Notes under the pieces: model-generated
What the model saw: only the letters and a program-made list of their open reading frames with translations
Database searches by the model: none
Told to the model about the DNA's origin: nothing
Shown: positions 5,774 through 63,466 of the stretch, in pieces
How the letters are laid out: each line of letters begins with the position of its first letter
Position numbering within the stretch: position 1 is the first letter of the stretch
Program-made: the position numbers and the translations under genes
Assembly: GCF_004342625.1 (NCBI RefSeq)
Contig: NZ_SMAH01000009.1
Coordinates: 62,001 to 126,000 of the forward strand
Reading direction: 5' to 3'
From: Tepidimonas ignava
GTDB lineage: Bacteria > Pseudomonadota > Gammaproteobacteria > Burkholderiales > Burkholderiaceae_C
Length of the DNA stretch: 64,000 bases

Positions 5774-7041
5774 GGTTGTTCCTCCCCGGCCTGGGCATCG
5801 AGCGCACGCTCAAAAAAGTAGCAGTAGCGGGCGCGTGGCTCCAGGTAGTCCAGCGCCGCGCGCGGCAGTTGGTCGGGCCGCAGGCTGCGCTGGATCGACA
5901 GCTGCGGCTGCGCCTGCAGGTCCAGCAGCAGCGCCTCGCTGCGCGGCACCGCGGGGTCGTGCACCAGCACGCGGGGCTTGAGCGGCCGGCTGGCGTTGAC
6001 CGCCTGCACGGTGGCGTAGCGCCCGTCGCTGAGCTGCACGATCGAGCCCGGCGGGTACACCCCGATCATGCGGATGAAGGCGGCCAGCGTGCGCGCGTCG
6101 AACTGCGCTTTGTGACGCGCGAACAGCAGGGCCAAGGCCTCGTGGGGCGTGAGCGCCTTGGCCGGGTGGTGGGGGTTGCACAGACGGTCGTAGCGGTTGA
6201 TCAACGCCAGCACGTGGGCGGCGGGCAGCAGCGCCTCGGCCGCGTGGCCGTGCGGAAAGCCACTGCCGTCGGCGGCTTCGTGGTGTTGCGCCACCGCCTG
6301 CGCCACCGCCTCGTCCAGCCCCATGGCGCGCACCAGCGCGGCCCCTTCGTCCGGGTGGGATTGGTAGGCCTTGAGCTGCGCCGGCGTGAACGCGTCGTCC
6401 TTGTGCCGCACAACCTCCGGCAGCCGCAGCTTGCCGATGTCGTGCAGCAGCGCCGCTTGCCCCAACGCCTGCAACGCCGGCGCATCGAAGCCCAGCGCGC
6501 GCCCCAGCAGCAGCGCCAACACCGTCACGTTCATCGCGTGCTGGGCGCCACGGTCACCCTGGACGTCGCCCAGCAGCCGGATCGCCGATTCGGCCTGGGC
6601 ACCCAGCTCGCCCACCAGCTCATGGACCAACGCCCGCGCCTGCGCGCCTGCGGCCTGCGGTGCGCGCTCCACCTCGTCCGCGAGGGCTTTGTAGCGTCGC
6701 GTGCCCTCGTGGTAGCGGCGTTCGCACTGCTGCAGCGCGCGCCGCTGCGCCGCCAAGGCCAAGCGGCGCGGGTCGGCGCCGCGCTCCGGGGTGGCGGCGT
6801 CCGGCGTGTCCGCGCCGGGCTGGGCGGACGGCGGTTCGGGGTCGCTTTCGGGGTCGCTGCGGGCCGGGTCGATGCGCACCCGCGTCAGACCCAGGGCACG
6901 GATGGTTTCGATCTGGCGCGTCGATTCGATGCGGAAGTTGTTGCGTGCGAACGGGTGGTCCATCCACCCCAGGTCGAGCAGCACGTAGTGGCCGACGCGC
7001 AGCTCGTCGACGGCGATCACGGGCAGCGCGGCGTCGGTCAT
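5770..7041 (-). CDS. HD-GYP cyclic-di-GMP phosphodiesterase with DUF3391 N-terminus
   Basis: A 423-residue soluble protein. Residues 8-60 (VDELRVGHYVLLDLGWMDHPF) match the DUF3391 module often found before HD-GYP domains. An Ala/Pro/Asp linker follows. The HD-GYP domain covers about 155-370 with QHAMNVT (His168), LLHDIGKLRLPE (His200-Asp201) and HHEAADGSGFP (253-263), where Phe replaces the Tyr of GYP. The metal-binding residues therefore look intact and c-di-GMP hydrolysis is likely. A frame extension to 7086 exists, but MTDAALPVIAVDELRVG is the natural family start. It is followed directly, with overlap, by the GGDEF-EAL gene. Confidence 0.9.
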   Translation of the reverse strand: MTDAALPVIAVDELRVGHYVLLDLGWMDHPFARNNFRIESTRQIETIRALGLTRVRIDPARSDPESDPEPPSAQPGADTPDAATPERGADPRRLALAAQRRALQQCERRYHEGTRRYKALADEVERAPQAAGAQARALVHELVGELGAQAESAIRLLGDVQGDRGAQHAMNVTVLALLLGRALGFDAPALQALGQAALLHDIGKLRLPEVVRHKDDAFTPAQLKAYQSHPDEGAALVRAMGLDEAVAQAVAQHHEAADGSGFPHGHAAEALLPAAHVLALINRYDRLCNPHHPAKALTPHEALALLFARHKAQFDARTLAAFIRMIGVYPPGSIVQLSDGRYATVQAVNASRPLKPRVLVHDPAVPRSEALLLDLQAQPQLSIQRSLRPDQLPRAALDYLEPRARYCYFFERALDAQAGEEQP

Positions 7042-52093: not shown

Positions 52094-54199
52094 ATGACGA
52101 ACCCCACCCAACCCCACACCGTGGCGGCGGCGCTGGCCCCTGAGACCACGGTGCTGGGCGCCTGTCCGCACGATTGCCCCGACACCTGTTCGCTCGTGAC
52201 CACCGTGCGCGACGGGCGGGCGGTGCATCTGCGCGGCAACCCCGACCACCCGCCAACCGCGGGCGTGTTGTGCACCAAGGTCAGCCGCTACCTGGAACGT
52301 GTCCACCACCCGCAGCGCCTGACGCAGCCGCTCAAGCGCGTTGGTCCCAAGGGGGCGGGGCAGTTCACGCCGGTGTCGTGGGACGAGGCGCTGGACGACA
52401 TCACCGCACGGCTGCGCGCCATCGCCGCGCGCGACCCGCAGGCCATCGTGCCGTACAGCTACGCCGGCACCATGGGCCTGGTGCAGGGCGAGGGCATGGC
52501 GGCGCGCTTCTTTCACCGGTTGGGTGCGTCGCTGCTGGATCGCACCATTTGCGCCAGCGCCGGTGCGGTGGCGTTGCAGGCCACGCTGGGGGGCAAAGTG
52601 GGCATGCCGGTGCACACCTTTGCCGACAGCCGCTTGATCCTCATCTGGGGCAGCCACAGCATCGCCAGCAACCTGCACTTTTGGCGCTACGCGCAGCAAG
52701 CCAAGCGGGCCGGGGCCACGCTGGTGTGCATCGACCCGCGGCGCACCGAAACGGCCGACAAGTGCGACGCGCACCTGGCCCTGCTGCCCGGCACCGACGC
52801 CGCGCTGGCCTACGCCCTGATTCACGAATGCTTCGTGCACGGTTGGGTCGACCACGATTACCTGCAGCGCCACACGGTGGGGTGGGAAGCGCTGCGGGCG
52901 CGCGCCCTGCAATGGCCTCCCGCGCGGGCGGCGGCCGTGTGCGGGCTGCCCGAGGCGGCGATCAAGGCGCTGGCGCGTGACATCGGCGCGTGCTTCGAGC
53001 GCGGCGAGCCGATCGGTATCCGCCTCAACTACGGCATGCAGCGCACCCGCGGCGGCGGCAACGCCGTGCGCGCGGTGGCCTGTTTGCCAGCCGTGCTGGG
53101 GGCCTGGCGGCGCCGTGGGGGTGGGCTGTTGCTGTCCAGCTCCGGCTGGTACCCGGTGCAGCGCGACGCGCTGTACAGGCCTGACTTGCTGTCGCACAGC
53201 CCCTGCCCGCAGCCGCGCACCATCAACATGAGCACCATTGGTGACGCGTTGCTGCACCCGGGCGGGGCCGATTGGGGGCCGCGCATCGAAGCGCTCATCG
53301 TCTACAACAGCAACCCTGCGGCGGTGGCGCCGCAGTCGGGGCGGGTGGTGCAGGGCCTGCGCCGTGACGACCTGTTCACCGTCGTGCTGGAGCAGTTCCA
53401 AACCGACACCGCCGACCACGCCGACTACCTGCTGCCGGCCACCACCCAATTGGAGCACTGGGACATCCACCTCAGCTACGGCCACACCGACGTGCTGCTC
53501 AACCGTCCCGCGATCGCGCCGTTGGGCCAGGCGCGGCCCAACACCTGGGTGTTTCGCGAGCTGGCGCGCCGCCTGGGGTTCGACGAGCCGTGCTTCGATG
53601 ACGACGACCTGACGCTGTGCCGGCAGGCGTTTGGCGAGGCGGTGGACTTCGAGCGGCTGCTGCGCGACGGCTGGGCGCCGCTGCCGGTGCCCGACGTGCC
53701 GTTTGCCGAAGGGGGTTTTCCGACGCCGTCGGGCAAGTGCGAGCTGTTCAGCGCGACGCTGGCCGCCCAGGGGCTCGACGGGCTGCCCGAGGTGCTGCCC
53801 AACCACGAACCCGCCGGGGCCGACCCACGCCACCCGTTGGCGATGATTTCACCGCCGGCGCGGCACTTTCTCAACTCCACCTTCGTCAACGTCAAGTCAC
53901 TGCGTGACGCCGAGGGCGAGCCGTGCCTGGAAATCCACCCGGACGACGCCGCCGCCCGGGGCATCACCGATGGGGACATCGTCGAGGTGTTCAACGACCG
54001 CGGACGGCACCGCACCCGCGCGCGCGTCACCACCCGCGCGCGCCCCGGTGTCGTCGTCGGCCTGGGTATCTGGTGGCGCAAAGACGGGCTGGATGGCACC
54101 AACGTCAACGAGCTGACCAGCCAGGCGCTGACCGACCTGGGCCGAGCCCCCACCTTTTACGACTGTGCCGTGCAGGTGCGCCGTGGCGTGACGGCATGA
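52094..54199 (+). CDS. molybdopterin oxidoreductase with 4Fe-4S motif
   Basis: A 701-residue DMSO-reductase-superfamily enzyme. An N-terminal cluster motif CPHDCPDTC (Cys24, Cys28, Cys32) with Cys60 would hold a 4Fe-4S cluster. The molybdopterin domains follow (residues 90-560: VSWDEALDDI, SYAGTMGLVQGEG, RLNYGMQRTRGGGNAVRA). The C-terminal cap domain reads MISPPARHFLNSTFV and LEIHPDDAAARGI. No Tat signal is present, so it is cytoplasmic. The segment DRTICASAG near 149-157 may offer the Mo ligand, but this is uncertain. No small Fe-S or membrane subunit lies nearby. The substrate is unknown. Confidence 0.88.
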   Translation: MTNPTQPHTVAAALAPETTVLGACPHDCPDTCSLVTTVRDGRAVHLRGNPDHPPTAGVLCTKVSRYLERVHHPQRLTQPLKRVGPKGAGQFTPVSWDEALDDITARLRAIAARDPQAIVPYSYAGTMGLVQGEGMAARFFHRLGASLLDRTICASAGAVALQATLGGKVGMPVHTFADSRLILIWGSHSIASNLHFWRYAQQAKRAGATLVCIDPRRTETADKCDAHLALLPGTDAALAYALIHECFVHGWVDHDYLQRHTVGWEALRARALQWPPARAAAVCGLPEAAIKALARDIGACFERGEPIGIRLNYGMQRTRGGGNAVRAVACLPAVLGAWRRRGGGLLLSSSGWYPVQRDALYRPDLLSHSPCPQPRTINMSTIGDALLHPGGADWGPRIEALIVYNSNPAAVAPQSGRVVQGLRRDDLFTVVLEQFQTDTADHADYLLPATTQLEHWDIHLSYGHTDVLLNRPAIAPLGQARPNTWVFRELARRLGFDEPCFDDDDLTLCRQAFGEAVDFERLLRDGWAPLPVPDVPFAEGGFPTPSGKCELFSATLAAQGLDGLPEVLPNHEPAGADPRHPLAMISPPARHFLNSTFVNVKSLRDAEGEPCLEIHPDDAAARGITDGDIVEVFNDRGRHRTRARVTTRARPGVVVGLGIWWRKDGLDGTNVNELTSQALTDLGRAPTFYDCAVQVRRGVTA

Positions 54200-54278
54200 A
54201 CGGCCCGCCCAGGCGAGCGCGCGTCAAGCCGCGGCGCTGGGTATGGGGTTTTGGTGTCGCGCAGCGGGTTGGGGCTGC

Positions 54279-54536
54279 TCACTCGAGCGTATCCACCAAC
54301 GCGGCGTAGCGGCGCATGGCCTCGTCGCGGGCCAGGCCCTTGAGCTTGGTCCAGGCATCCCACTTGGCGCGCGCCACCAGGTCGGTCAGGCCAGGCTTGG
54401 GGCTGGTGTTGTCGCCCTCGGTGGCTTGTTTGTACAGCGCGTACAACTGCAGCAGGGTGTTGTTGTCCGGGCGGCGCGTCAGCGTCTGGACGCGCTGCAG
54501 CGCGGCTTCGAAGGCGGTTTGGGCGTCGGTGCTCAT
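54279..54536 (-). CDS. acyl-CoA-binding protein
   Basis: An 85-residue four-helix protein that binds medium and long acyl-CoA esters and serves as intracellular carrier. It shows the family motif LQLYALYKQATEGDN (about 30-44) and the Lys/Trp pair in ARAKWDAWTKLKG. The last helix ends YAALVDTLE. The gene starts only about two bases after the predicted transcription start, so the mRNA may be leaderless. A TetR-like dyad lies in its promoter. It is convergent with the molybdoenzyme gene. Confidence 0.93.
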   Translation of the reverse strand: MSTDAQTAFEAALQRVQTLTRRPDNNTLLQLYALYKQATEGDNTSPKPGLTDLVARAKWDAWTKLKGLARDEAMRRYAALVDTLE

Positions 54537-54544
54537 GGCTCACA

Positions 54545-54572
54545 ATAATACGAACGTTCGTTCGTTTGTCAA
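54545..54572 (-). promoter_or_regulatory. acyl-CoA-binding protein promoter with palindromic operator
   Basis: Read on the minus strand: a consensus TTGACA (54567-54572), a 16-base spacer, then TATTAT (54545-54550). The perfect palindrome ACGAACGTTCGT (54550-54561) sits in the spacer and touches the -10, a classic TetR-type repressor position. In beta-proteobacteria, fatty-acid regulators of the TetR family use sites of this kind. The exact regulator is inferred. Confidence 0.72.
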
Positions 54573-54651
54573 TCACCTGCGTGGGTGATCCATCCATCCG
54601 ACCCACGTTTTGCCTCGATGGGGGCAAGTAACGCCGTTATGATGCCTGTCC

Positions 54652-55611
54652 ATGTTCTTGGACGCCAGCTACAAGTGGCTCTTCAGCGAGCCGCGCCTCA
54701 TCGAAGACCTGCTGCGCGCCTACGTGCCCGGCCCCTGGGAGGAGGCCGACTTCACAACGCTGGAGCGCGTCAACGCAAGCTACGTCACGGCCTCGGAAAA
54801 GCAGCGCCACGACGACATGGTCTGGCGGCTCAAGGTCGGGCCGCGCTGGGTGTGGGTGTACCTGCTGCTGGAGTTTCAGCAAGAGCCCGAGGCGCGCATG
54901 GCGCTGCGCATGCTGGGCTACGTGGCGCTGCTGGCGCAGCACCTGGTGCAAGAGCGCCAGCTCAACGACGACGGCAGCATCCCCGCCTTGCTGCCGGTGG
55001 TGCTCTACACGGGCGACAGCGCCTGGCACGCGCCCGTGCAGGTGGCCGACCTCTTTGATACCTCGCTGCCGGCGCTGCAGCCCTACGTGCCGCGGCTGCA
55101 GCACGTGCTGCTGCAGCAGCACAAGCTGGTCAAGCACGAAGTGCCGGCGGTCCGAAACCTGGCGCAGGCGGTCTTTGAGCTGGAGCAAGGCGCAAGCCGC
55201 CAGCAGGTGCTGGCGGTGCTGCAAGCGCTGCAAGCGTGGCTGGCCGATGACGCCTCGGCGCCGCTGCGGCGCCACCTGACGGTGTGGCTCAAGCAGTGGT
55301 TGCGTCGCAGCCGGCGCAAAGGTAGCATAGTGCAAAGCTTGGAACAGCACGCAGACTGGCTGGAGCCTACGATGAAGCTGCACGAAAAACTCGACATGTG
55401 GTACGACCAGGCGGTCGAAGAGGGCGCTCAAAAGGGCCAACACGAAGGCTTGGCCAAGGCGGTGGCGCTGCAGGCGCGGCTGCGTTTCGGCGAGCTGCCG
55501 GCGTGGGCGCATGAACGCTTACAGCGTGCCAGTGAAGACGACCTGTTGGGGTGGCTGGCGCGCATGCTCACGGCGACGAGCTTGGAGGAGTTGCTCGGGC
55601 GCTCGCATTGA
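54652..55611 (+). CDS. Rpn-family (YhgA-like) putative nuclease
   Basis: A 319-residue protein of the recombination-promoting nuclease group (PD-(D/E)XK fold). The N-terminus FLDASYKWLFSEPRLIEDLL is the family entry signature. The nuclease core is given by Asp in QRHDDMVWRLK and the Glu-x-Gln of YLLLEFQQEPEARMALRM. A helical C-terminal part (about 220-319) contains a charged coiled-coil stretch. E. coli Rpn proteins cleave DNA in vitro and raise recombination; some act in phage defence. Here the gene is single, with no partner. Confidence 0.85.
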   Translation: MFLDASYKWLFSEPRLIEDLLRAYVPGPWEEADFTTLERVNASYVTASEKQRHDDMVWRLKVGPRWVWVYLLLEFQQEPEARMALRMLGYVALLAQHLVQERQLNDDGSIPALLPVVLYTGDSAWHAPVQVADLFDTSLPALQPYVPRLQHVLLQQHKLVKHEVPAVRNLAQAVFELEQGASRQQVLAVLQALQAWLADDASAPLRRHLTVWLKQWLRRSRRKGSIVQSLEQHADWLEPTMKLHEKLDMWYDQAVEEGAQKGQHEGLAKAVALQARLRFGELPAWAHERLQRASEDDLLGWLARMLTATSLEELLGRSH

Positions 55612-55873
55612 GTGAGCCGCGGCTGATGTGCGTGTGAGAGGGCCCACCAACCCACGTTGGGGGTGGTGCGGTCTTGGCCGGTCGAGCATCCAGCCAGTCC
55701 GATCGAGGACGACGGCACACCCAGACCAGACGCATCCGTGTCGTTGCGCAGCCTTTTCAGCCATTTGGCGTGGGTTCAGGCCCCGCTGAGCGTTGGCTGT
55801 TGGCATCAGTGGCTGTCAACCGCTCAAGCGCTGGGTGCCCACGGGGCATCCAGCGTCAAAACTTCGTTGCTGA
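55612..55873. other. 262-base convergent gap without a supported gene
   Basis: Between the Rpn gene and the comEA-like gene I see no gene or RNA. Short open frames exist on both strands, but none has a ribosome binding site, codon bias or family motif. A weak hairpin (ACCAACCCA around ACGT pairing with TGGGGGTGGT) near 55650-55675 could serve as a terminator, although no T run follows. Confidence 0.4.
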
Positions 55874-56386
55874 TCAGCGTGAAGGTGCCGACAGTCCCGG
55901 AATTGTCGGGTACGCCGCCGCGGGCGGCGCAGACGGCTTGCCGGCTGGCCGTTCATGCCCGGCCGACCCTGGGGGGCGTGCGGATGGCGAGGCGGGCGGG
56001 TGCGGTGCTGCAGGCGCGGCGGGGTTCGCGCCGCGCGCCGACACCACGGCTTGCGCCAACTCGGCACCGTAGCTGCGTCCGTTGACCCGCAGCCCCTGCG
56101 CGGAGAGTTTTTCGGCTGTCTTGGGTCCGATGCCGGCCACGCGCGCCTGCAAATCGTCCCACCCATGAAAGGGTCGTTGCTGGCGAGCCTGCACGACACG
56201 TTGCGCCAACACCGGCCCCACACCGTGCAGCGTCGCCAGCTGCGCCGCGCTGGCTTGGTTGGCCTCTAGCACCTGCGCCAGCGCGGGCGTGCACGCGGCC
56301 AGCGACGCCCAGACGGCCACAGCGACGCAGGCATGCAGGCGCGCGCAGCGCCCCTGTCGCGCGAATGCTTGGATACGGTGGGTCAT
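55874..56386 (-). CDS. ComEA-like helix-hairpin-helix DNA-binding protein
   Basis: A 170-residue exported protein. The signal peptide ends near ALAQ (residue 38). Residues 40-105 hold two helix-hairpin-helix motifs: EANQASAAQLATLHGVGPVLAQRVVQAR and AGIGPKTAEKL, typical of ComEA, which binds incoming DNA in natural transformation. The remaining 60 residues are Pro/Ala-rich and unstructured. GGGGAGGAG precedes the ATG. It is divergent from the TnpB-like gene. Other competence genes are not in the window. Confidence 0.87.
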   Translation of the reverse strand: MTHRIQAFARQGRCARLHACVAVAVWASLAACTPALAQVLEANQASAAQLATLHGVGPVLAQRVVQARQQRPFHGWDDLQARVAGIGPKTAEKLSAQGLRVNGRSYGAELAQAVVSARGANPAAPAAPHPPASPSARPPGSAGHERPAGKPSAPPAAAYPTIPGLSAPSR

Positions 56387-56476
56387 GTGTCTCCTCCCCA
56401 TGGTTGGTGGGCGCGACTTGGCCGGGTGGGCGCGGTACACTGCGCCGCCTGCGGCCTACCAGTGAAGGCAAGGAAT

Positions 56477-56501
56477 TTCATATATGAATACATGCTACAC
56501 T
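56477..56501 (+). promoter_or_regulatory. AT-rich palindrome and promoter region before the TnpB-like gene
   Basis: A perfect 12-base palindrome TTCATATATGAA (56477-56488) and a -10-like TACACT (56496-56501) lie in an unusually AT-rich 35-base patch, directly before the ATG at 56509. If TACACT is used, the mRNA would begin at or near the start codon. No Shine-Dalgarno is visible. Confidence 0.5.
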
Positions 56502-56508
56502 TGCCCAC

Positions 56509-57159
56509 ATGACTTGGTTGCGCATCAGCACGCCACTGGCCGCAGAGCCTGAGCAGACACAACGCTTGCGAGCGTTGCAGCAAGCTTTTGCGCAAGCGTG
56601 CAACTGGCTGGCTCCCTTGGTTCGGGGGCACCGTTGCTGGAACCGTGTGGCCTTGCATCACCTGGCGTACCGTCCATTGCGGCAAGCCATGCCCGCACTG
56701 GGGGCGCAGATGGCGTGCAATGCCATATATTCGGTTTGCCGAGCCGCACGTCTGGTATACCAACACCCCCACAGTCCTTTTCACCACAGCCGTTTGCAAG
56801 GGCAGACGCTGCCACTGCTTCGTTTTGCAGACACTTGCCCCGTGTATTTTGACCGCCACACGCTCAGCTTGCGCAACGGTGTGGCGTCACTTTACACGTT
56901 GGACGGGCGCATACGGTTTCAATTGGTGCTCGCACCCCAAGCGCTGGATGCGCTGGCGACGATGCGTTTGAGGGAAATCGTACTCAGTGGGCATGACCAG
57001 CATGCTTACCAGCTTACTTTTGTCCTGAGTGCCCCAAACGAAGGCGCGCCACTCGACCACGATGCGCCGGAGTTTGTGGTTACGGCCGGCGATCCGGTGG
57101 CGGCAGCGCCCACACTACCTCCTTATCTACAAGTGGAGCCATCTCATGCCTCAACCTGA
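56509..57159 (+). CDS. TnpB-like N-terminal domain protein lacking the RuvC nuclease domain
   Basis: A 216-residue protein whose whole visible plan matches the N-terminal half of IS605-type TnpB. Residues 20-90 contain the helical block with ACNWLA (30-35) and LHHLAYRPLRQAMPALGAQMACNAI, like the LHxLVYxxVRxxFGLSAQMAxxAI pattern of TnpB. Residues 100-175 resemble the beta-barrel region (VYFDRHTLSL, LDGRIRF). Where TnpB begins its RuvC domain (xGVDLG), this protein has VTAGDP, then 20 residues and a stop. The catalytic Asp/Glu/Asp set and the zinc finger are absent. Base composition is visibly lower in GC than its neighbours. It overlaps the ABC exporter gene by 14 bases. RNA-guided binding without cleavage is possible but untested. 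Confidence 0.7.
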   Translation: MTWLRISTPLAAEPEQTQRLRALQQAFAQACNWLAPLVRGHRCWNRVALHHLAYRPLRQAMPALGAQMACNAIYSVCRAARLVYQHPHSPFHHSRLQGQTLPLLRFADTCPVYFDRHTLSLRNGVASLYTLDGRIRFQLVLAPQALDALATMRLREIVLSGHDQHAYQLTFVLSAPNEGAPLDHDAPEFVVTAGDPVAAAPTLPPYLQVEPSHAST

Positions 57160-58882
57160 CGCAGCGGGCCAACCCACACCGCCCGAGTGGCCGCAAGTGC
57201 TGCAAGATCTGTGGCCGGCCGTGCGCCGAGCTTGGTTTTTTGCCGTTGTTGCCAGCTTGCTTTTGCTGGCGCCCACGTTTTACATGTTCGAAGTCTACGG
57301 CCGAGTGGTCAACAGCCGCAGCCACATGACCTTGGCGATGTTGACTCTGGCGGTGGTGTTGGCGTATGCGGTCATGGAAACGCTGGAGTGGGCGCGCAAC
57401 GAGGTGATGCGCGAGGCCGCCACCTGGTTTGACCGCTGCTTGGCCCCGCGGGTGGTGGACGCCATCCACGAAGGCAACCTGCGTCGCCTCGGGGCTGGCA
57501 CGGTGCAGCCCATGGTGGATCTGCGCGTCGTGCGGGATTTTTTCAATCAGCCCGCCGTTGCAGCGGCGATGGAAGCGCCGGTGGCGCTGGTGTTTTTGCT
57601 GATCCTGTTCATCGTGCACCCGTGGTTGGGGTGGGCCGCGTTGGTGGGGGCACTCATCCAGGTGGCGCTGGCATGGAGCAACGAGCGCATGACGCAGCCG
57701 CCGCTGAGCGCGGCCAACCGCGCCGCCATCGCCGCGCAACAAACGGCCGATGGCATGTTGCGCAACGCCGAAGTCGTCGAAGCCATGGGCATGTTGCGCA
57801 GCATCCACGCCCGCTGGTGGAAACAGCAACAAACGTTTTTGGATTTGCAAGCGCTCGCCTCGAACCGTGCCGGGGCGTTTGCGGCGCTCACCAAATGGAT
57901 CCAGACGGTCTGGGGTTCTCTGTTGCTGGGCTTGGGTGCCTGGTTGGTGCTGGAAAACACCCTGCCTGGGGGGGGCGCCATGATGATCGTGGCCTCGGTG
58001 CTGGGTGGTCGGGTGCTGGCGCCGTTGGTGCAACTGGTGACCCAATGGCGCTCGGTCATCCAAGCGCGCGATGCTTGGGGGCGGCTGACCAAGCTGTTGG
58101 CTCAAGTGCCGCCGGCGTCCGACGCGTTGCCGCTGCCTGCGCCGCGGGGCCATGTGTCGGTGGAAGGCATCGTGGTTGCCCCGCCGGGCACCCCAACGAC
58201 GATTTTGCGCAGCGTCGCGTTTGCCCTGCAGCCGGGTGAGGCGCTGGCGGTCGTGGGGCCGTCGGGGGCCGGCAAAACCACCTTGGCGCGGGCGCTGGTT
58301 GGGCTGTGGCCCTCGATGGCTGGCAAGGTTCGACTGGATGGCGCCGATGTGTACACCTGGCGCAAAGACGAACTTGGACCGCACATTGGCTACCTGCCCC
58401 AGGGTGTTGAATTGTTGGAGGGCACCGTGGCAGAAAACATCGCCCGCTTTGGGGAGGTGGACATGCGCCGTGTGCGTGAGGCGGCGGCGTTGGTCGGCCT
58501 GGACGCCTTGATTGAAAGCTTGCCCCAGGGCTACGACACCTGGGTGGGGCCCGAGGGGGCGGTGTTATCCGGGGGGCAGCGCCAGCGGGTTGCCTTGGCC
58601 CGAGCGCTCTATGGTGACCCTGTGCTGGTGGTGTTGGATGAGCCCAACGCCAGCTTGGATGAAGCAGGGGACGCGGCCCTGGTCCATGCCATTCGCACCC
58701 TCAAAGCCCGTGGCACCACCTTCGTGGTGATGACCCACCGCACCAGTGTGTTGACGGTTGTCGACAAGATGCTGGTGTTGGTGGAGGGTGCGGTCAAAGC
58801 CTTCGGACCTCGTGACGATGTGCTGGCGGCTTTGCGTGCCGGCCATGCGCCTGCCCACGTTTCCGCCACAAGGACAGCATGA
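57146..58882 (+). CDS. type I secretion ABC exporter, first copy (PrtD-like)
   Basis: A 578-residue half-transporter: six membrane segments (about 30-290) and a nucleotide-binding domain (335-560). Walker A GPSGAGKT is at 371-378, signature LSGGQ at 474-478, DEP at 498-500, and the switch His in VMTHRTSV. No C39 peptidase domain is present, so it is the PrtD/HasD type that moves RTX or similar proteins with a C-terminal signal. The start overlaps the TnpB-like frame and has GGAG eight bases before it. It overlaps the second ABC gene (ATGA), which suggests the two form a heterodimer. Confidence 0.92.
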   Translation: MPQPDAAGQPTPPEWPQVLQDLWPAVRRAWFFAVVASLLLLAPTFYMFEVYGRVVNSRSHMTLAMLTLAVVLAYAVMETLEWARNEVMREAATWFDRCLAPRVVDAIHEGNLRRLGAGTVQPMVDLRVVRDFFNQPAVAAAMEAPVALVFLLILFIVHPWLGWAALVGALIQVALAWSNERMTQPPLSAANRAAIAAQQTADGMLRNAEVVEAMGMLRSIHARWWKQQQTFLDLQALASNRAGAFAALTKWIQTVWGSLLLGLGAWLVLENTLPGGGAMMIVASVLGGRVLAPLVQLVTQWRSVIQARDAWGRLTKLLAQVPPASDALPLPAPRGHVSVEGIVVAPPGTPTTILRSVAFALQPGEALAVVGPSGAGKTTLARALVGLWPSMAGKVRLDGADVYTWRKDELGPHIGYLPQGVELLEGTVAENIARFGEVDMRRVREAAALVGLDALIESLPQGYDTWVGPEGAVLSGGQRQRVALARALYGDPVLVVLDEPNASLDEAGDAALVHAIRTLKARGTTFVVMTHRTSVLTVVDKMLVLVEGAVKAFGPRDDVLAALRAGHAPAHVSATRTA

Positions 58883-60636
58883 TGCTTTTGTCTGTGTCTT
58901 CGGGTTCGGCGCGGTCCGAACTGGGTCAAACGCTGTGGGCGTTCCGCCGCGAGTTTGCTGTGGTCGGTTGGTACAGCCTTGTGGCTAACGTGCTCATGCT
59001 CACGCCCACGCTGTACATGCTGCAGGTGTACGACCGTGTGATGGTCAGCCGCAGTGAGCTGACCTTGCTGGTCGTCTCGGTGCTGGCCCTGTTGCTGTTG
59101 GGCTTCATGGCGTTGGCCGAGTGGTTGCGCTCGCGCGTGTTGGTGCGGGTTGGTCAGCGTATCGACGACGCGCTCAGCAACCGTGTTTTTCAGGCCTCGT
59201 TTGACGCGAGCCTGCGCCCCAACGAAGGTCGGCAAGGGCGTGCCTTTGCCGATCTGACCGAGCTGCGCCAATTTCTCACGGGCAACGGCGTTTTTGCGTT
59301 GTTTGACACGCCGTGGGCGCCCATTTACATCGCGGTGCTGATGCTCATGCACCCGATGCTGGGGTGGCTGGCCGTGGCCTTTGCCGGGGTGCAGCTTGCG
59401 CTGGCGTGGTGGGGGCAGCGGGCGGCGCGCGCACCGGCGCAGGCGCTTCATCAATCACAAACCGACGAAAACCGGTTTCTACAGTCCAAGCTGCGCAACG
59501 CCGAAGTCGTGCAGGCCATGGGCATGCTGCCCGGGCTCAAGCAACGCTGGCAGCAGCGGCACGACGCCGTTATGCAGCAGCACGCCGCCGCGCAAGCCAC
59601 GACCCACCGTGTGGCCGCGTGGAGTAAATTCGTGCGCTACTGCCAACAGTCGTTGATGTTGGGGGCGGGCGCGTTGCTGGTCATCGACGGTGAGCTGTCC
59701 CCCGGTGCGATGATCGCGGCCAACGTGCTGGCGGCGCGGGCGCTGGCTCCAATTGACATGCTGGCCGGCACATGGAAAGCGTTTCTAAGTGCTCGACTGG
59801 CTTACGACCGGCTGCGGCGCTTGCTGCAGGACCACCCGACGCGTGATCTGGCTCTGCGCCGTGTGGCGCCACGCGGCCGTGTCGAGCTTCGTGGCGTGGT
59901 GGCCCGGGCGCCAGGTCGTGACCAGCCGATTTTGCACGGCATCGACTTGACGCTCGAGCCTGGCACCGTCACCGTCGTGATGGGACCATCGGGCAGTGGC
60001 AAATCCACGTTGGCGCGTGTGGTCGTGGGCATCTGGCCCGATGTGCAGGGTGAGGTGCTGCTGGACGAGCACCCATTGCAGAGTTGGTCACGTGTCGAAT
60101 TGGGCGGACATCTGGGGTACCTGCCGCAAGATATTGAACTTTTTGATGGCACCATCGCGCAGAACATCGCGCGCATGGGCCAGGAAGATCCTCAGGCTGT
60201 CGTGGCTGCAGCCAAAATCACCGGCCTGCATCCAACCATCCTGCGCTTTCCCAAAGGGTATGACACCCCCATGGGCGAAGCCGGGCAGTTGCTCTCGGGG
60301 GGGCAGCGGCAGCGGGTGGCCTTGGCGCGTGCGCTGTACGGAAACCCGGCCCTGGTCGTGTTGGACGAGCCCAACGCCAACTTGGACGACGCCGGCGAAG
60401 CGGCCTTGCAGCACGCGCTGCGAGCCCTCCGGGAAGCTGGGCGCACCGTGCTGGTGGTATCCCACCGTCCCGGGGTGCTGAATGTGGCCGATCGTGTGGT
60501 CGTGATGCGCGAGGGCCGCATCGAAGCCAGCGGTGCTCGGGACGACGTCATGGCGCGCCTCGCGCAGGCTGCCCAGGCAGCGGCGTTGGCAGGCCCCCAC
60601 GACAACGACCACCCCCACCGCGCACCAGCCACCTGA
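58879..60636 (+). CDS. type I secretion ABC exporter, second copy (PrtD-like)
   Basis: A 585-residue half-transporter with the same plan as its neighbour: membrane part about 25-290 (NVLMLTPTLYMLQVYDRVMVSRSELTL region), Walker A GPSGSGKS at 369-376, LSGGQ at 472-476, and LVVLDEPNANLD. Both ATP sites appear intact in the two subunits. The typical PrtD entry motif YMLQVYDRV is present here and degenerate in the first copy (FEVYGRV). Two ATG codons (58879 and 58882) begin the frame; either may be used. Gap to the adaptor gene is 36 bases. Confidence 0.93.
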   Translation: MMLLSVSSGSARSELGQTLWAFRREFAVVGWYSLVANVLMLTPTLYMLQVYDRVMVSRSELTLLVVSVLALLLLGFMALAEWLRSRVLVRVGQRIDDALSNRVFQASFDASLRPNEGRQGRAFADLTELRQFLTGNGVFALFDTPWAPIYIAVLMLMHPMLGWLAVAFAGVQLALAWWGQRAARAPAQALHQSQTDENRFLQSKLRNAEVVQAMGMLPGLKQRWQQRHDAVMQQHAAAQATTHRVAAWSKFVRYCQQSLMLGAGALLVIDGELSPGAMIAANVLAARALAPIDMLAGTWKAFLSARLAYDRLRRLLQDHPTRDLALRRVAPRGRVELRGVVARAPGRDQPILHGIDLTLEPGTVTVVMGPSGSGKSTLARVVVGIWPDVQGEVLLDEHPLQSWSRVELGGHLGYLPQDIELFDGTIAQNIARMGQEDPQAVVAAAKITGLHPTILRFPKGYDTPMGEAGQLLSGGQRQRVALARALYGNPALVVLDEPNANLDDAGEAALQHALRALREAGRTVLVVSHRPGVLNVADRVVVMREGRIEASGARDDVMARLAQAAQAAALAGPHDNDHPHRAPAT

Positions 60637-60672: not shown

Positions 60673-62022
60673 ATGAACACACACACCACGGTTACCGAAG
60701 CGCTGTCTGCCTCGCCAGTCGGTGCGGCGCAGGCGGCGGTACGTCCAGCCAGCCGCGCCGCCCGGTGGGGGGCTTGGGCCTTGATGTTGGGCTTTGGCGG
60801 CTTTGTCGCGTGGGCTGCATGGGCCCCGCTGGACGAGGGCGTGCCCACGCACGGCGTCGTGGCCATCGACACCAAGCGCAAGGCGGTGCAGCACCTCAGT
60901 GGCGGTATCGTGCAACAAGTGTTGGTGCGCGAAGGAGATCTGGTGCGCGAAGACCAAACCCTGATCGTGCTGGATGAGAAGGCTGCACGTGCCAACTACG
61001 AGGCTGTGCGCCAGCGCTACCTTGGGCTGCGCGCCATGCAAGGTCGTTTGATGGCAGAGCAACTCGGGGCAACCACCATCACATGGCACCCGGACTTGCT
61101 CGCTGCGCGCCAAGACCCGTGGATCGAAGCGCAGATGCAGGCCCAACAGCAACTGCTGCGTTCGCGCCGCGAGGGGTTGCAAGCAGAACTTCGCGCGCTG
61201 GAAGAGGCAAGTCAGGGGCAACAGGCGGTGCTGCGCGCCTACCAAGCGATGCTGCCCAGCCGGGAGCAACAACTCGCTTCGTTGGAAGAGGAACTGCGCA
61301 GCATCACCGCGCTGGTCCACGACGGCTACGCTCCCCGCACACGGCAAAACGAACTGCAACGCCAGGTGGCCGAGCTCAAAGCGCAACTGGCCGACCTGCA
61401 AGGCAACATTGAGCGTGCCCAGCGCGCCATAGCGGAGTTGCGCCAACGGTCGGTGGCGCGGCAACAGGAATTCCGCAAGGACGTCGAAAACGAACTCACC
61501 CGGGTCAACCTTGACGTGCAGGCCGATGCCGAGCGTTACCGGGCGGCGCAGGCTGAGCTGCAGCGCACCGAAATCCGCGCCCCCGCCACAGGCCAGGTGG
61601 TGGGGTTGGCTGTGCAAAGCGTGGGTGCCGTGATTCAGCCAGGTCAAAAGCTCATGGATATCGTCCCGTTGGACGAGACGTTGCTGCTGGAGACCCGGTT
61701 GGAGCCCCACCTGATCGACAAGGTGCGCGCTGGCCTCAAGGCAGATGTGCGCTTCAGCACCTTCGCGCACTCGCCGCAGTTGGTGGTGGAGGGCGAAGTC
61801 GTGTCTGTTTCGGGTGATCTGCTGGCCGATCCCCACACGGGGGCGCCCTATTACTTGATGCGGGTCAAGCTCACCGAAGCAGGCATGCACACGCTGGGGC
61901 CACGCAAGTTGCAGCCCGGCATGCCGGTCGAAGTCATCGTCAAGACAGGTGAGCGCTCGCTGCTGACTTACCTCGCAGGGCCGTTGGTGCGCCGGGTTGC
62001 GGCGAGCCTGAAGGAAGAATGA
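60673..62022 (+). CDS. type I secretion membrane fusion protein (HlyD/PrtE-like)
   Basis: The periplasmic adaptor linking the ABC exporter to the outer membrane channel. The 449-residue protein has one N-terminal membrane anchor (about 33-52, WGAWALMLGFGGFVAW), a first lipoyl half (GVVAIDTKRKAVQHLSGG), and a long coiled coil rich in Gln/Glu/Leu (about 110-300). A second lipoyl half and the beta-barrel region follow with RTEIRAPATGQVVGLAV, PGQKLMDIVP and LQPGMPVEVIVKTGERSLLTYL. The C-terminal motif is characteristic of HlyD/PrtE. The outer membrane gene follows one base after its stop. Confidence 0.93.
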   Translation: MNTHTTVTEALSASPVGAAQAAVRPASRAARWGAWALMLGFGGFVAWAAWAPLDEGVPTHGVVAIDTKRKAVQHLSGGIVQQVLVREGDLVREDQTLIVLDEKAARANYEAVRQRYLGLRAMQGRLMAEQLGATTITWHPDLLAARQDPWIEAQMQAQQQLLRSRREGLQAELRALEEASQGQQAVLRAYQAMLPSREQQLASLEEELRSITALVHDGYAPRTRQNELQRQVAELKAQLADLQGNIERAQRAIAELRQRSVARQQEFRKDVENELTRVNLDVQADAERYRAAQAELQRTEIRAPATGQVVGLAVQSVGAVIQPGQKLMDIVPLDETLLLETRLEPHLIDKVRAGLKADVRFSTFAHSPQLVVEGEVVSVSGDLLADPHTGAPYYLMRVKLTEAGMHTLGPRKLQPGMPVEVIVKTGERSLLTYLAGPLVRRVAASLKEE

Positions 62023-62023
62023 A

Positions 62024-63466
62024 ATGCGGCCACACCAATCGATACCGAGGCCAGCGACCCCGTGGGTTGGTACGCCACAGCGCTGGTGGGGTTGCATACG
62101 CGCTTGTGCACTCACCGCGGTGATGGCGGTGGGCGGTTGGGCCCATGCCCTGGACCTGGACCAGGCGTACCGTCTGGCCCAGAGCAACGATGCTCGCGTG
62201 CGCGCCACCCGTGCCGCCACCGATGCCCAGCGCGAGCGCCTGCCGCAGGCCGAATCTCAGCGCTTGCCCCAGGTAAGCCTGAGTGGCAGCCGCTCCAACA
62301 ACGACCTCACCCGAACCAGCCAAAATTTTCTCGGTCAGCCGGTGACGGTGGACGAGCGGTACTGGAGCTACAACGCTACTCTGGGGGTGCGTGTGCCGCT
62401 GTACCGGCCGGCGGTCACGGCCGGCATTGCGGTGGCCAAGGCCCAAGTGGCGGACGCCGAGGCGGTGTTGCGTGCCGAGGAAATCAACCTCGCGGCGCGC
62501 GTCGCGCAGGCTTACTTCGAGGCACTGACGGCTCAGGACAACATCGAACTGGTGGCGGCGCAACAACGTGCCGCCACCACCCAGGCCGACGCTGCACGCA
62601 AAGCCTGGCAAGCCGGCACCGGTACCCGCACCGACGTGGACGAAATCGAGGCACGGTTGGACTTGCTGCGAGCCGACGAAGTGCGTGCGCGGCAACAACT
62701 CGAGTACGCAATGGCCCAGATGCAAGTGCTCGTCGGTCCATGGGATGGCGCCCTGGCCCCCGTTGACGCCCAGAGGTTTGCCGTGGCGCCGTTGCAACTT
62801 GCAACCCTGACCCAGTGGCTGGAGCTGGCCGAGCGCAACAGCCCGGAGCTGGCGGCGCTGCGCGCGCGGCGCGACGCGGCGCAACAGGAAATCGCCCGCG
62901 CCAGCGCCGGTCACTGGCCTACCCTGGACGCGGTCGTGCAAATCACCCGCAGCGCCAGCGAAAACGTCACCTCGCCCAGCTCCAGCTACACCAACCGGGC
63001 GGTTGGCGTGCAGTTGAACGTGCCGCTTTACAGTGGGGGCTATACCAGCTCCACCGTGCGTCAGGCCATGGCCGAACTTGTCCGTGCCGAAGAACAGCTC
63101 GAAGCCGCCCGGCGCGACCTGCACCTGCGCATCCACGACCAATACCGTTTGGTCATCGAGGGCTCGCAGCGCATCAGCGCTTTGCAAAAGGCACTGGCCT
63201 CGGCGCAGCAGGTGGTACAGTCCAACCGGCAATCTTGGCTTGCCGGCGTGCGTACCATCCTCGATGTGTTGGATGCCGAAGTGCGCGCACTCACCGTCGA
63301 GCGCGACCTGCGTGCCGCGCGTTACCAGTACCTGCTGGCGCGGCTGCGCCTGGCGGTGTTGGCAGGTGCCAGCGTTGATGAGGAGCTCGGTACCGTTCAA
63401 GCCATGTTGTCCACGGGGCCGCGCGCCGCAGCCACCGCCCAAACGGTAACCACCAACCCCAATTGA
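62024..63466 (+). CDS. TolC-family outer membrane secretion protein
   Basis: The outer membrane exit tunnel of the type I system. The 480-residue protein has a signal sequence ending near HALDL (residue 42), then two repeated outer-membrane-efflux units: LDQAYRLAQSND and AYFEALTAQDN in the first, WLELAERNSPELAAL, GVQLNVPLYSGGYTSSTVRQA and NRQSWLAGVRTILDVLDAE in the second. The family blocks VPLY and LPQ are visible. The first 20 residues before the hydrophobic core make an unusually long N-region, so an internal start cannot be excluded. It ends the secretion operon. Confidence 0.93.
   Translation: MRPHQSIPRPATPWVGTPQRWWGCIRACALTAVMAVGGWAHALDLDQAYRLAQSNDARVRATRAATDAQRERLPQAESQRLPQVSLSGSRSNNDLTRTSQNFLGQPVTVDERYWSYNATLGVRVPLYRPAVTAGIAVAKAQVADAEAVLRAEEINLAARVAQAYFEALTAQDNIELVAAQQRAATTQADAARKAWQAGTGTRTDVDEIEARLDLLRADEVRARQQLEYAMAQMQVLVGPWDGALAPVDAQRFAVAPLQLATLTQWLELAERNSPELAALRARRDAAQQEIARASAGHWPTLDAVVQITRSASENVTSPSSSYTNRAVGVQLNVPLYSGGYTSSTVRQAMAELVRAEEQLEAARRDLHLRIHDQYRLVIEGSQRISALQKALASAQQVVQSNRQSWLAGVRTILDVLDAEVRALTVERDLRAARYQYLLARLRLAVLAGASVDEELGTVQAMLSTGPRAAATAQTVTTNPN

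Follow-up and report, generated by a model that had tools for sequence, protein, structure and literature searches.

The putative regulator gene and its operon

In the 64,000-nucleotide stretch of the 2.7 Mb Tepidimonas ignava genome analysed here (the window), a gene at 56509..57159 (+ strand, ATG start, TGA stop at 57157-57159) encodes a 216-amino-acid (aa) protein that corresponds to the recognition lobe of the transposon-associated protein TnpB (WED and REC domains), with RuvC and the TNB/zinc finger absent. The frame, the AT-rich stretch upstream of 56509 (seen by eye) and the 14-base overlap of the frame end with the ATG of the next gene at 57146 are all present as described in an earlier reading made from the letters alone (the sequence-only reading). 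A -10-like TACACT lies by eye at 56496..56501 (+ strand), in a layout that relatives share, and the transcript would start near 56508, giving a leaderless or near-leaderless messenger RNA. Further upstream, at 56477..56488 and assigned to neither strand, is the putative operator TTCATATATGAA, the local form of a recurrent motif, TTCATATAGGA, and a palindrome by eye.

The four genes that follow on the + strand form a complete type I secretion set, all scoring above their NCBIfam cut-offs. They encode two PrtD-type ABC transporters, the first a type I secretion permease/ATPase that overlaps the regulator gene by the 14 bp noted above (57146..58882; TIGR01842, 642 bits, cut-off 510) and the second at 58879..60636 (TIGR01842, 669 bits, cut-off 510), a HlyD-type periplasmic adaptor (60673..62022; TIGR01843, 357 bits, cut-off 209) and a TolC-type outer membrane channel (62024..63466; TIGR01844, 277 bits, cut-off 225).

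A TnpB recognition lobe without its nuclease lobe

BLASTP aligned the 216-aa protein with the IS200/IS605 TnpB of Methylomarinovum tepidoasis plasmid IN45P at 45% identity over 143 aa (E 2e-32), and that TnpB in turn scores 189 bits against the guided_TnpB profile NF040570 (cut-off 100). The AlphaFold model (predicted local distance difference test score, pLDDT, 89) matches Cas12f and TnpB recognition lobes; among the fold matches listed, 50 of 50 are Cas12, TnpB, Fanzor or TranC entries, and none of the 50 has a stand-alone lobe in its title. The link to TnpB is established through homologues and fold, since the profile libraries gave nothing useful: Pfam and NCBIfam returned no match for the protein, and phmmer against PDB sequences was likewise empty. 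A profile made from 78 rows gave two chance-level matches only against PDB sequences, and PHROGs returned one family with function not known (E 0.045). A sequence search aimed at the residues with which ISDra2 contacts its transposon-adjacent motif (TAM) left the N-terminal halves unaligned. On the combined evidence of homology and predicted structure, the protein is homologous to the WED/REC lobe of TnpB and the likeness is real; the structural resemblance to TnpB, on which the sequence-only reading had staked its claim, is borne out.

Neither the RuvC catalytic domain nor the TNB/zinc finger is found. The 216-aa frame stops before RuvC would start, Pfam and NCBIfam detect neither domain, and the frame is open in all 80 of the relatives read (the best 80 of 232 in the species collection), at 201-271 codons. 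In 77 of these 80 loci the alignment of the ABC gene starts between -21 and +63 bases from the stop, the contigs of the other three ending 71 to 348 bases past it; this would leave no space for a RuvC remnant after the gene, although the gaps were given no dedicated RuvC search. The earlier claim of a stop before RuvC with no remnant behind it agrees with these open frames and with the ABC gene that comes immediately after. Towards its C-terminus the protein has a low-confidence linker and then a short strand, P204 and Y206 being invariant in the 78-row alignment. Among viral contigs the 78-row alignment found no relatives, and the protein P0002 gave two weak RuvC-side matches; P0002 searched against 369 genomes of the class gave none at 1e-50, a stringency at which the result shows little.

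Conservation, synteny and selection

A search of the 120 nearest genomes gave matches at E<=0.01 in 19, a figure that counts the own genome, full-length TnpBs and weak matches. The nearest named relatives in the species collection are from Tepidimonas species, and the carriers are mostly Comamonadaceae and their relatives, Thauera and Zoogloea among them (names as in the records). Alignments were made of the window protein with nine of the eleven orthologous loci (A1) and with 77 of the 80 loci (A2; L051, L092 and L117 left out). All eleven orthologous loci, from seven genera and two families, have the order gene-ABC-ABC-HlyD-TolC on one strand, so that the orthologues which the sequence-only reading had proposed to look for stand beside the same secretion genes at 11 of 11 loci and at the 77 of 80 whose contigs extend far enough. 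More than 6.5 kb of sequence follows the stop at 57 loci, and at 56 of these the TolC gene lies inside the operon; the exception is the Xylophilus locus L073, which has none on either strand within its 16.6 kb. A close homologue of the first ABC gene occurs in 25 of the 120 genomes, and of the 13 that reach 55% identity all but one, 12, carry the regulator gene, as against 0 of 12 below that value. When the profile was run against 339 class genomes, two matched: the own genome and one from a different family, in which the gene stands ahead of a one-ABC exporter with TTCATATATGAA at the gene start.

In a 31-row tree (23 of 81 sequences, a truncated copy and seven full-length TnpBs) all 24 recognition-lobe rows fall on one side of a branch with support of 100/99, the full-length rows carrying a long-branch warning, and the TnpB of genome G495 belongs to a small group that branches next to the recognition-lobe clade with moderate support (88/78 and 90/83). 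The ratio of nonsynonymous to synonymous substitution rates (dN/dS) is 0 to 0.24 in the seven pairs with dS <0.5, the purifying selection for which the sequence-only reading had set its dN/dS check. The recognition-lobe genes are one clade under purifying selection and not relics. A truncated second copy in one Tepidimonas genome (G009) speaks for a decaying transposon relic with a chance open frame; that reading is refuted by the 80 of 80 open loci, the single clade over many genera, the fixed synteny and the dN/dS of 0-0.24 in the closest pairs, and we give it practically no weight.

A conserved operator at the promoter

The motif TTCATATAGGA recurs upstream of the regulator gene, and its usual inverted partner, TCCTATATGAA, holds the ATG of the start codon; in the relatives a -10-like hexamer sits by eye between the two arms. 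The upstream regions compared were those of the window and of 79 loci, L058 being excluded because its contig begins at the gene. One site or more at <=1 mismatch is present in 79 of these 80 regions, and the remaining one, L045, has a site with two mismatches. The exact forward 11-mer is found in 61 regions and the simple inverted layout in 47 (window palindrome counted). Arm-to-arm distances run from 9 to 18 bases, most commonly 16 (window palindrome aside), both orders and orientations of the arms are found, and positions outside the 11-mer are not conserved.

A blind search of 399 genomes of the family for the exact two-arm pattern returned 22 genomes, with one place in each, and none for the reversed control; at all 22 places an orthologue with its ABC gene comes directly after the site. 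The exact 11-mer occurs 58 times (reversed control 0) across 32 carrier genomes, 22 of which were picked for having the two-arm site: 54 times at regulator-gene promoters, once at the truncated copy in G009, once before a separate tolC in G415 and twice elsewhere in G261. Within the own genome this promoter is the only place for TTTCATATAKGA at <=1 mismatch (on both strands, being a palindrome), the reversed control also matching once. Ten exporters lacking the regulator gene have no site at <=1 mismatch within 8.7-18 kb each. As expected of an autoregulator, then, a conserved operator stands in the gene's own promoter and is largely confined to carriers of the gene, with exceptions.

The tolC-like gene of G415 (Pfam OEP) lies away from the secretion operon, its operator copy at L231:5477-5487 being next to a -10-like TAGAAT. 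L073 and G415 were taken as the same organism on the basis of an identical two-arm sequence. The G415 site looks like an operator that has moved with the fourth gene of the operon, and this tolC is a possible natural test of the regulon. The truncated second regulator copy in G009 (L042, G009:C13:38584-38937) is 72% identical over residues 1-118, lies ~24 kb from the operon and retains the TCCTATATGAA start site.

The insertion motif of full-length relatives

Of 13 left ends examined in full-length relatives, 11 have TTCAT directly abutting the element on its 5' side (6/7 in G090, 2/2 readable in G549 and 3/3 in G495). Four further left ends went unread: L160 (masked), L155 (N-terminus absent), and L154 and the Methylomarinovum copy (end not identified). 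When the G549 flanks are joined across one insertion, the frame stays open through the junction and ATGAA (TTCAT reversed) codes within it, so TTCAT is host sequence and not part of the element. One G495 insertion apparently interrupts, by eye, the start codon of a gene that we take to be purN-like.

The first five bases of the operator TTCATATAGGA are this same TTCAT, and the window site consists of two inverted copies two bases apart, TTCAT-AT-ATGAA. In IS605-family TnpB the 5' insertion motif serves as the TAM. The TAM of ISDra2 is TTGAT, and TAM reading by TnpB is done by the same recognition lobe (PMC10097598). The motif common to the operator and to the relatives' insertion sites points indirectly to binding of the operator by the regulator protein, and a pair of protomers may read each operator on TTCAT half-sites.

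Probable autoregulation of a type I exporter

Our data suggest that the RuvC-less TnpB lobe is a dedicated, probably guide-free autoregulator of the type I exporter, likely a repressor, acting via the operator of its own operon, and we put the probability of this reading at roughly two in three. An IS200/IS605-type TnpB appears to have lost its whole nuclease lobe, leaving the TAM-reading recognition lobe, its REC helices inserted in the WED barrel. Captured ahead of a type I secretion operon, this lobe has been retained by numerous Burkholderiales genera, most likely as a protein-only regulator of 5'-TTCATATAGGA-3' sites overlapping its own operon's promoter. Homology, the loss of RuvC, synteny, the single clade, selection, the operator with its near-exclusivity and the agreement with the insertion motif are observed; operator binding by the protein, independence of a guide and repression as the sign of control are inferred. 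As one arm sits directly ahead of the -10 and its partner lies over the start codon, bound protein would exclude RNA polymerase, and such an autorepressor would hold the exporter low until some signal or level releases it. The sequence-only reading had left open whether the gene controls the exporter or is a relic; the operator with its single target supports control, and selection, fixed synteny and the 80 of 80 open frames count against a relic.

The layout of the operator suggests repression of the target promoter. Autoregulated activators also exist. Bound protein could instead recruit polymerase to a promoter lacking a good -35, and no conserved -35 was seen by eye; the blocking arrangement, with one arm just before the -10 and the other on the start site and start codon, makes an activator unlikely, although it has an appreciable chance of being right. 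It is also conceivable that an unrelated regulator reads the operator and that the TnpB-derived protein serves the exporter otherwise, by binding the near-leaderless messenger RNA, by chaperoning or in assembly. The right arm does overlap the start codon, where a messenger RNA binder could act, but the left arm is upstream of the -10 and would stay untranscribed, both arm orders and orientations occur, the site starts with the motif adjoining the relatives' elements, and it follows the regulator gene and not the exporter (22 of 22 with the gene; 0 of 10 exporters without it). We regard this division of labour as distinctly unlikely.

Several observations weigh against autoregulation through a TAM-derived operator. 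The left end of L014 (G090) could not be aligned and shows no TTCAT, and L150 (G119), among the three full-length TnpBs nearest the clade, has GTCAT in its place. TTCAT covers only 5 of the 11 site bases, and its agreement with the operator would arise by chance in ~1.4% of cases at any offset or strand (14/1024) and in 0.2% at the site edge, assuming equal base use. The near-invariance of the 11 positions is partly built in, the sites having been picked at <=1 mismatch. The two additional G261 sites adjoin unrelated genes, and the two-arm layout is dispensable, since a single arm, not always the same one, has been lost from some Tepidimonas operons. In G053, one of the ten exporters without the regulator gene, the first ABC protein is 63% identical and yet the operon has neither the gene nor the site, which implies that the exporter does not need the regulator. 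Finally, over 423 pairs with dS of 0.05-1 the median dN/dS is 0.32 and the maximum 0.71, a soft figure with many dS near saturation.

Guide RNA and comparison with known systems

IS200/IS605 TnpB cleaves DNA with an omega RNA. The present gene does not sit within a transposon that has hairpins at its ends and encodes such an RNA: it is fixed in a secretion operon, and Rfam found no family at gathering score over 54000-60000, two sub-threshold matches (E 0.13 and 0.39) being taken as chance. Synonymous sites show no excess conservation at the 3' end of the gene (ratio to expectation 0.76-0.89 in windows from residue 163 to 200, then 1.02-1.04), and there is no non-coding room between the regulator and ABC genes. 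The guide-like RNA that the sequence-only reading had suggested looking for across 56400-57300 accordingly found no backing. At this locus, neither Rfam nor the synonymous sites showed any sign of an adjacent or embedded guide RNA.

A guide made elsewhere in the genome would turn the protein into an RNA-guided repressor similar to TldR, with TTCAT as the TAM and ATAGGA as a six-base seed match. In length and order the conserved 11 bp do match a TAM followed by six target bases, and mutation of TldR seed positions 1-6 de-repressed the target (PMC13418256). Opposed to this are the loss of RuvC (in TnpB the guide scaffold is held by RuvC and WED together; PMC10097598), the Rfam result, the gene's 3' side, which offers neither a non-coding gap nor synonymous constraint, and the lack of conservation beyond the six seed-like bases. 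An RNA-guided mode of action seems improbable to us.

TldR proteins, TnpB-like nuclease-dead repressors, were reportedly described by Wiegand et al. in 2024. They retain a mutated RuvC, use a guide RNA and find their targets by RNA-DNA pairing (Walker et al., 2026; PMC13418256). The 216-aa protein is similar in being derived from TnpB, with nuclease activity not expected, and in being tied to a non-transposon gene with apparent control of transcription. It differs in that the whole RuvC/TNB lobe is missing, whereas RuvC is mutated but present in TldR, and in that no guide was found at its locus and its target appears to be its own promoter, via a fixed short operator. We do not class it as TldR because a mutated RuvC is absent and a guide RNA was not found. 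The IS200/IS605 TnpBs (Methylomarinovum IN45P, G495 and G119) share with it the 45% identity over the recognition lobe and the TTCAT at the three G495 left ends, but are full length with RuvC, and the Methylomarinovum copy adjoins tnpA. Cas12f entries are RNA-guided nucleases or dead variants, in contrast to the lone lobe here. Nuclease-dead Cas12 proteins of types V-C and V-M silence transcription under the guidance of CRISPR RNA (crRNA) and retain an inactivated nuclease domain (PMC12669027), two points of difference from the present protein; the Cas12/TnpB fold and a transcription block without cutting, predicted in our case, are common to both. Work on the surface-layer protein NpdA (PMC10765051) was set aside, since it deals with an unrelated type II system, and PMC12803034, consulted on TAM reading, was likewise not drawn on.

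The RuvC-free lobe is a new variant of TnpB exaptation, and among the open-licence PMC papers listed in our literature searches there was no account of the regulator or its operator. In the TnpB domestication known so far, repression is RNA-guided and RuvC is dead; in this case the protein has apparently shed its programmable part and kept only the DNA-reading lobe. We lean, a little beyond even odds, towards a TAM-reading lobe that has become a stand-alone guide-free transcription factor, new in origin and in DNA-binding fold, with an operator that includes the ancestral TAM and with one secretion operon under its control in much of the Burkholderiales. Guide-free binding, if true, would define a new class of DNA-binding regulator and would mean that the ability to recognise a TAM is by itself enough for a sequence-specific regulator to evolve from. 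The WED/REC protein, small and free of RuvC by nature, has a predicted site of 11 bp and would also allow TAM reading to be studied without RNA, and a candidate regulator and operator can now be named for a widespread type I secretion operon.

Candidate cargo and neighbouring genes

DUF4214 proteins occur in 13 of 23 carrier genomes and 1 of 22 non-carriers (Fisher p 0.0002), a comparison of 45 hand-picked genomes in which the carriers also own the exporter. One flank cluster is found at 19 of 80 loci, and DUF4214 is present in the single member scanned, whose RTX and trypsin-like matches fall short of their cut-offs. One DUF4214 protein is encoded in the own genome (L242, G000:C4, ~198659), by a 1083-codon frame with RTX-like repeats by eye. 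These proteins are candidate cargo of the exporter only. Eight secretion-operon loci have in their flanks a gene of one cluster, of the cyclophilin-type prolyl isomerase kind in the one member tested (L110:1267-2094).

A second family of 83-98 aa resembles the REC helices only (L261:5140-5427, + strand, G070; L260:4076-4327, + strand, G250; L259, - strand, ~6147-6443, G036). Similarity to the window protein is 33% over 90 aa for G070 (E 7e-8) and 29% over 99 aa for G036 (E 4e-7), and G250 is reached via the G070 protein only. These loci have no TTCATATAGGA site at <=1 mismatch, and ~30-60 bases downstream of each family member lies a gene for a PPK2-type polyphosphate kinase (PF03976 for G070; the others by similar N-terminus). 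The family is possibly a separate, further-reduced TnpB exaptation. In the own genome a 90-aa frame at L257:4452-4724 (- strand; 89 aa in G008, L258) is weakly similar to this REC-only family, possibly by chance, and adjoins a gene that by eye reads like a dihydroxy-acid dehydratase.

Upstream of the secretion operon, the window has a Transposase_31 gene (YhgA-like, PF04754) at 54652-55611 (+ strand), with no match in the 16 regions searched at 1e-4. Divergent from the regulator gene is a gene for a small helix-hairpin-helix protein (PF12836) at 55874-56440 (- strand), the homologue of which in G009 lies ~5 kb farther away.
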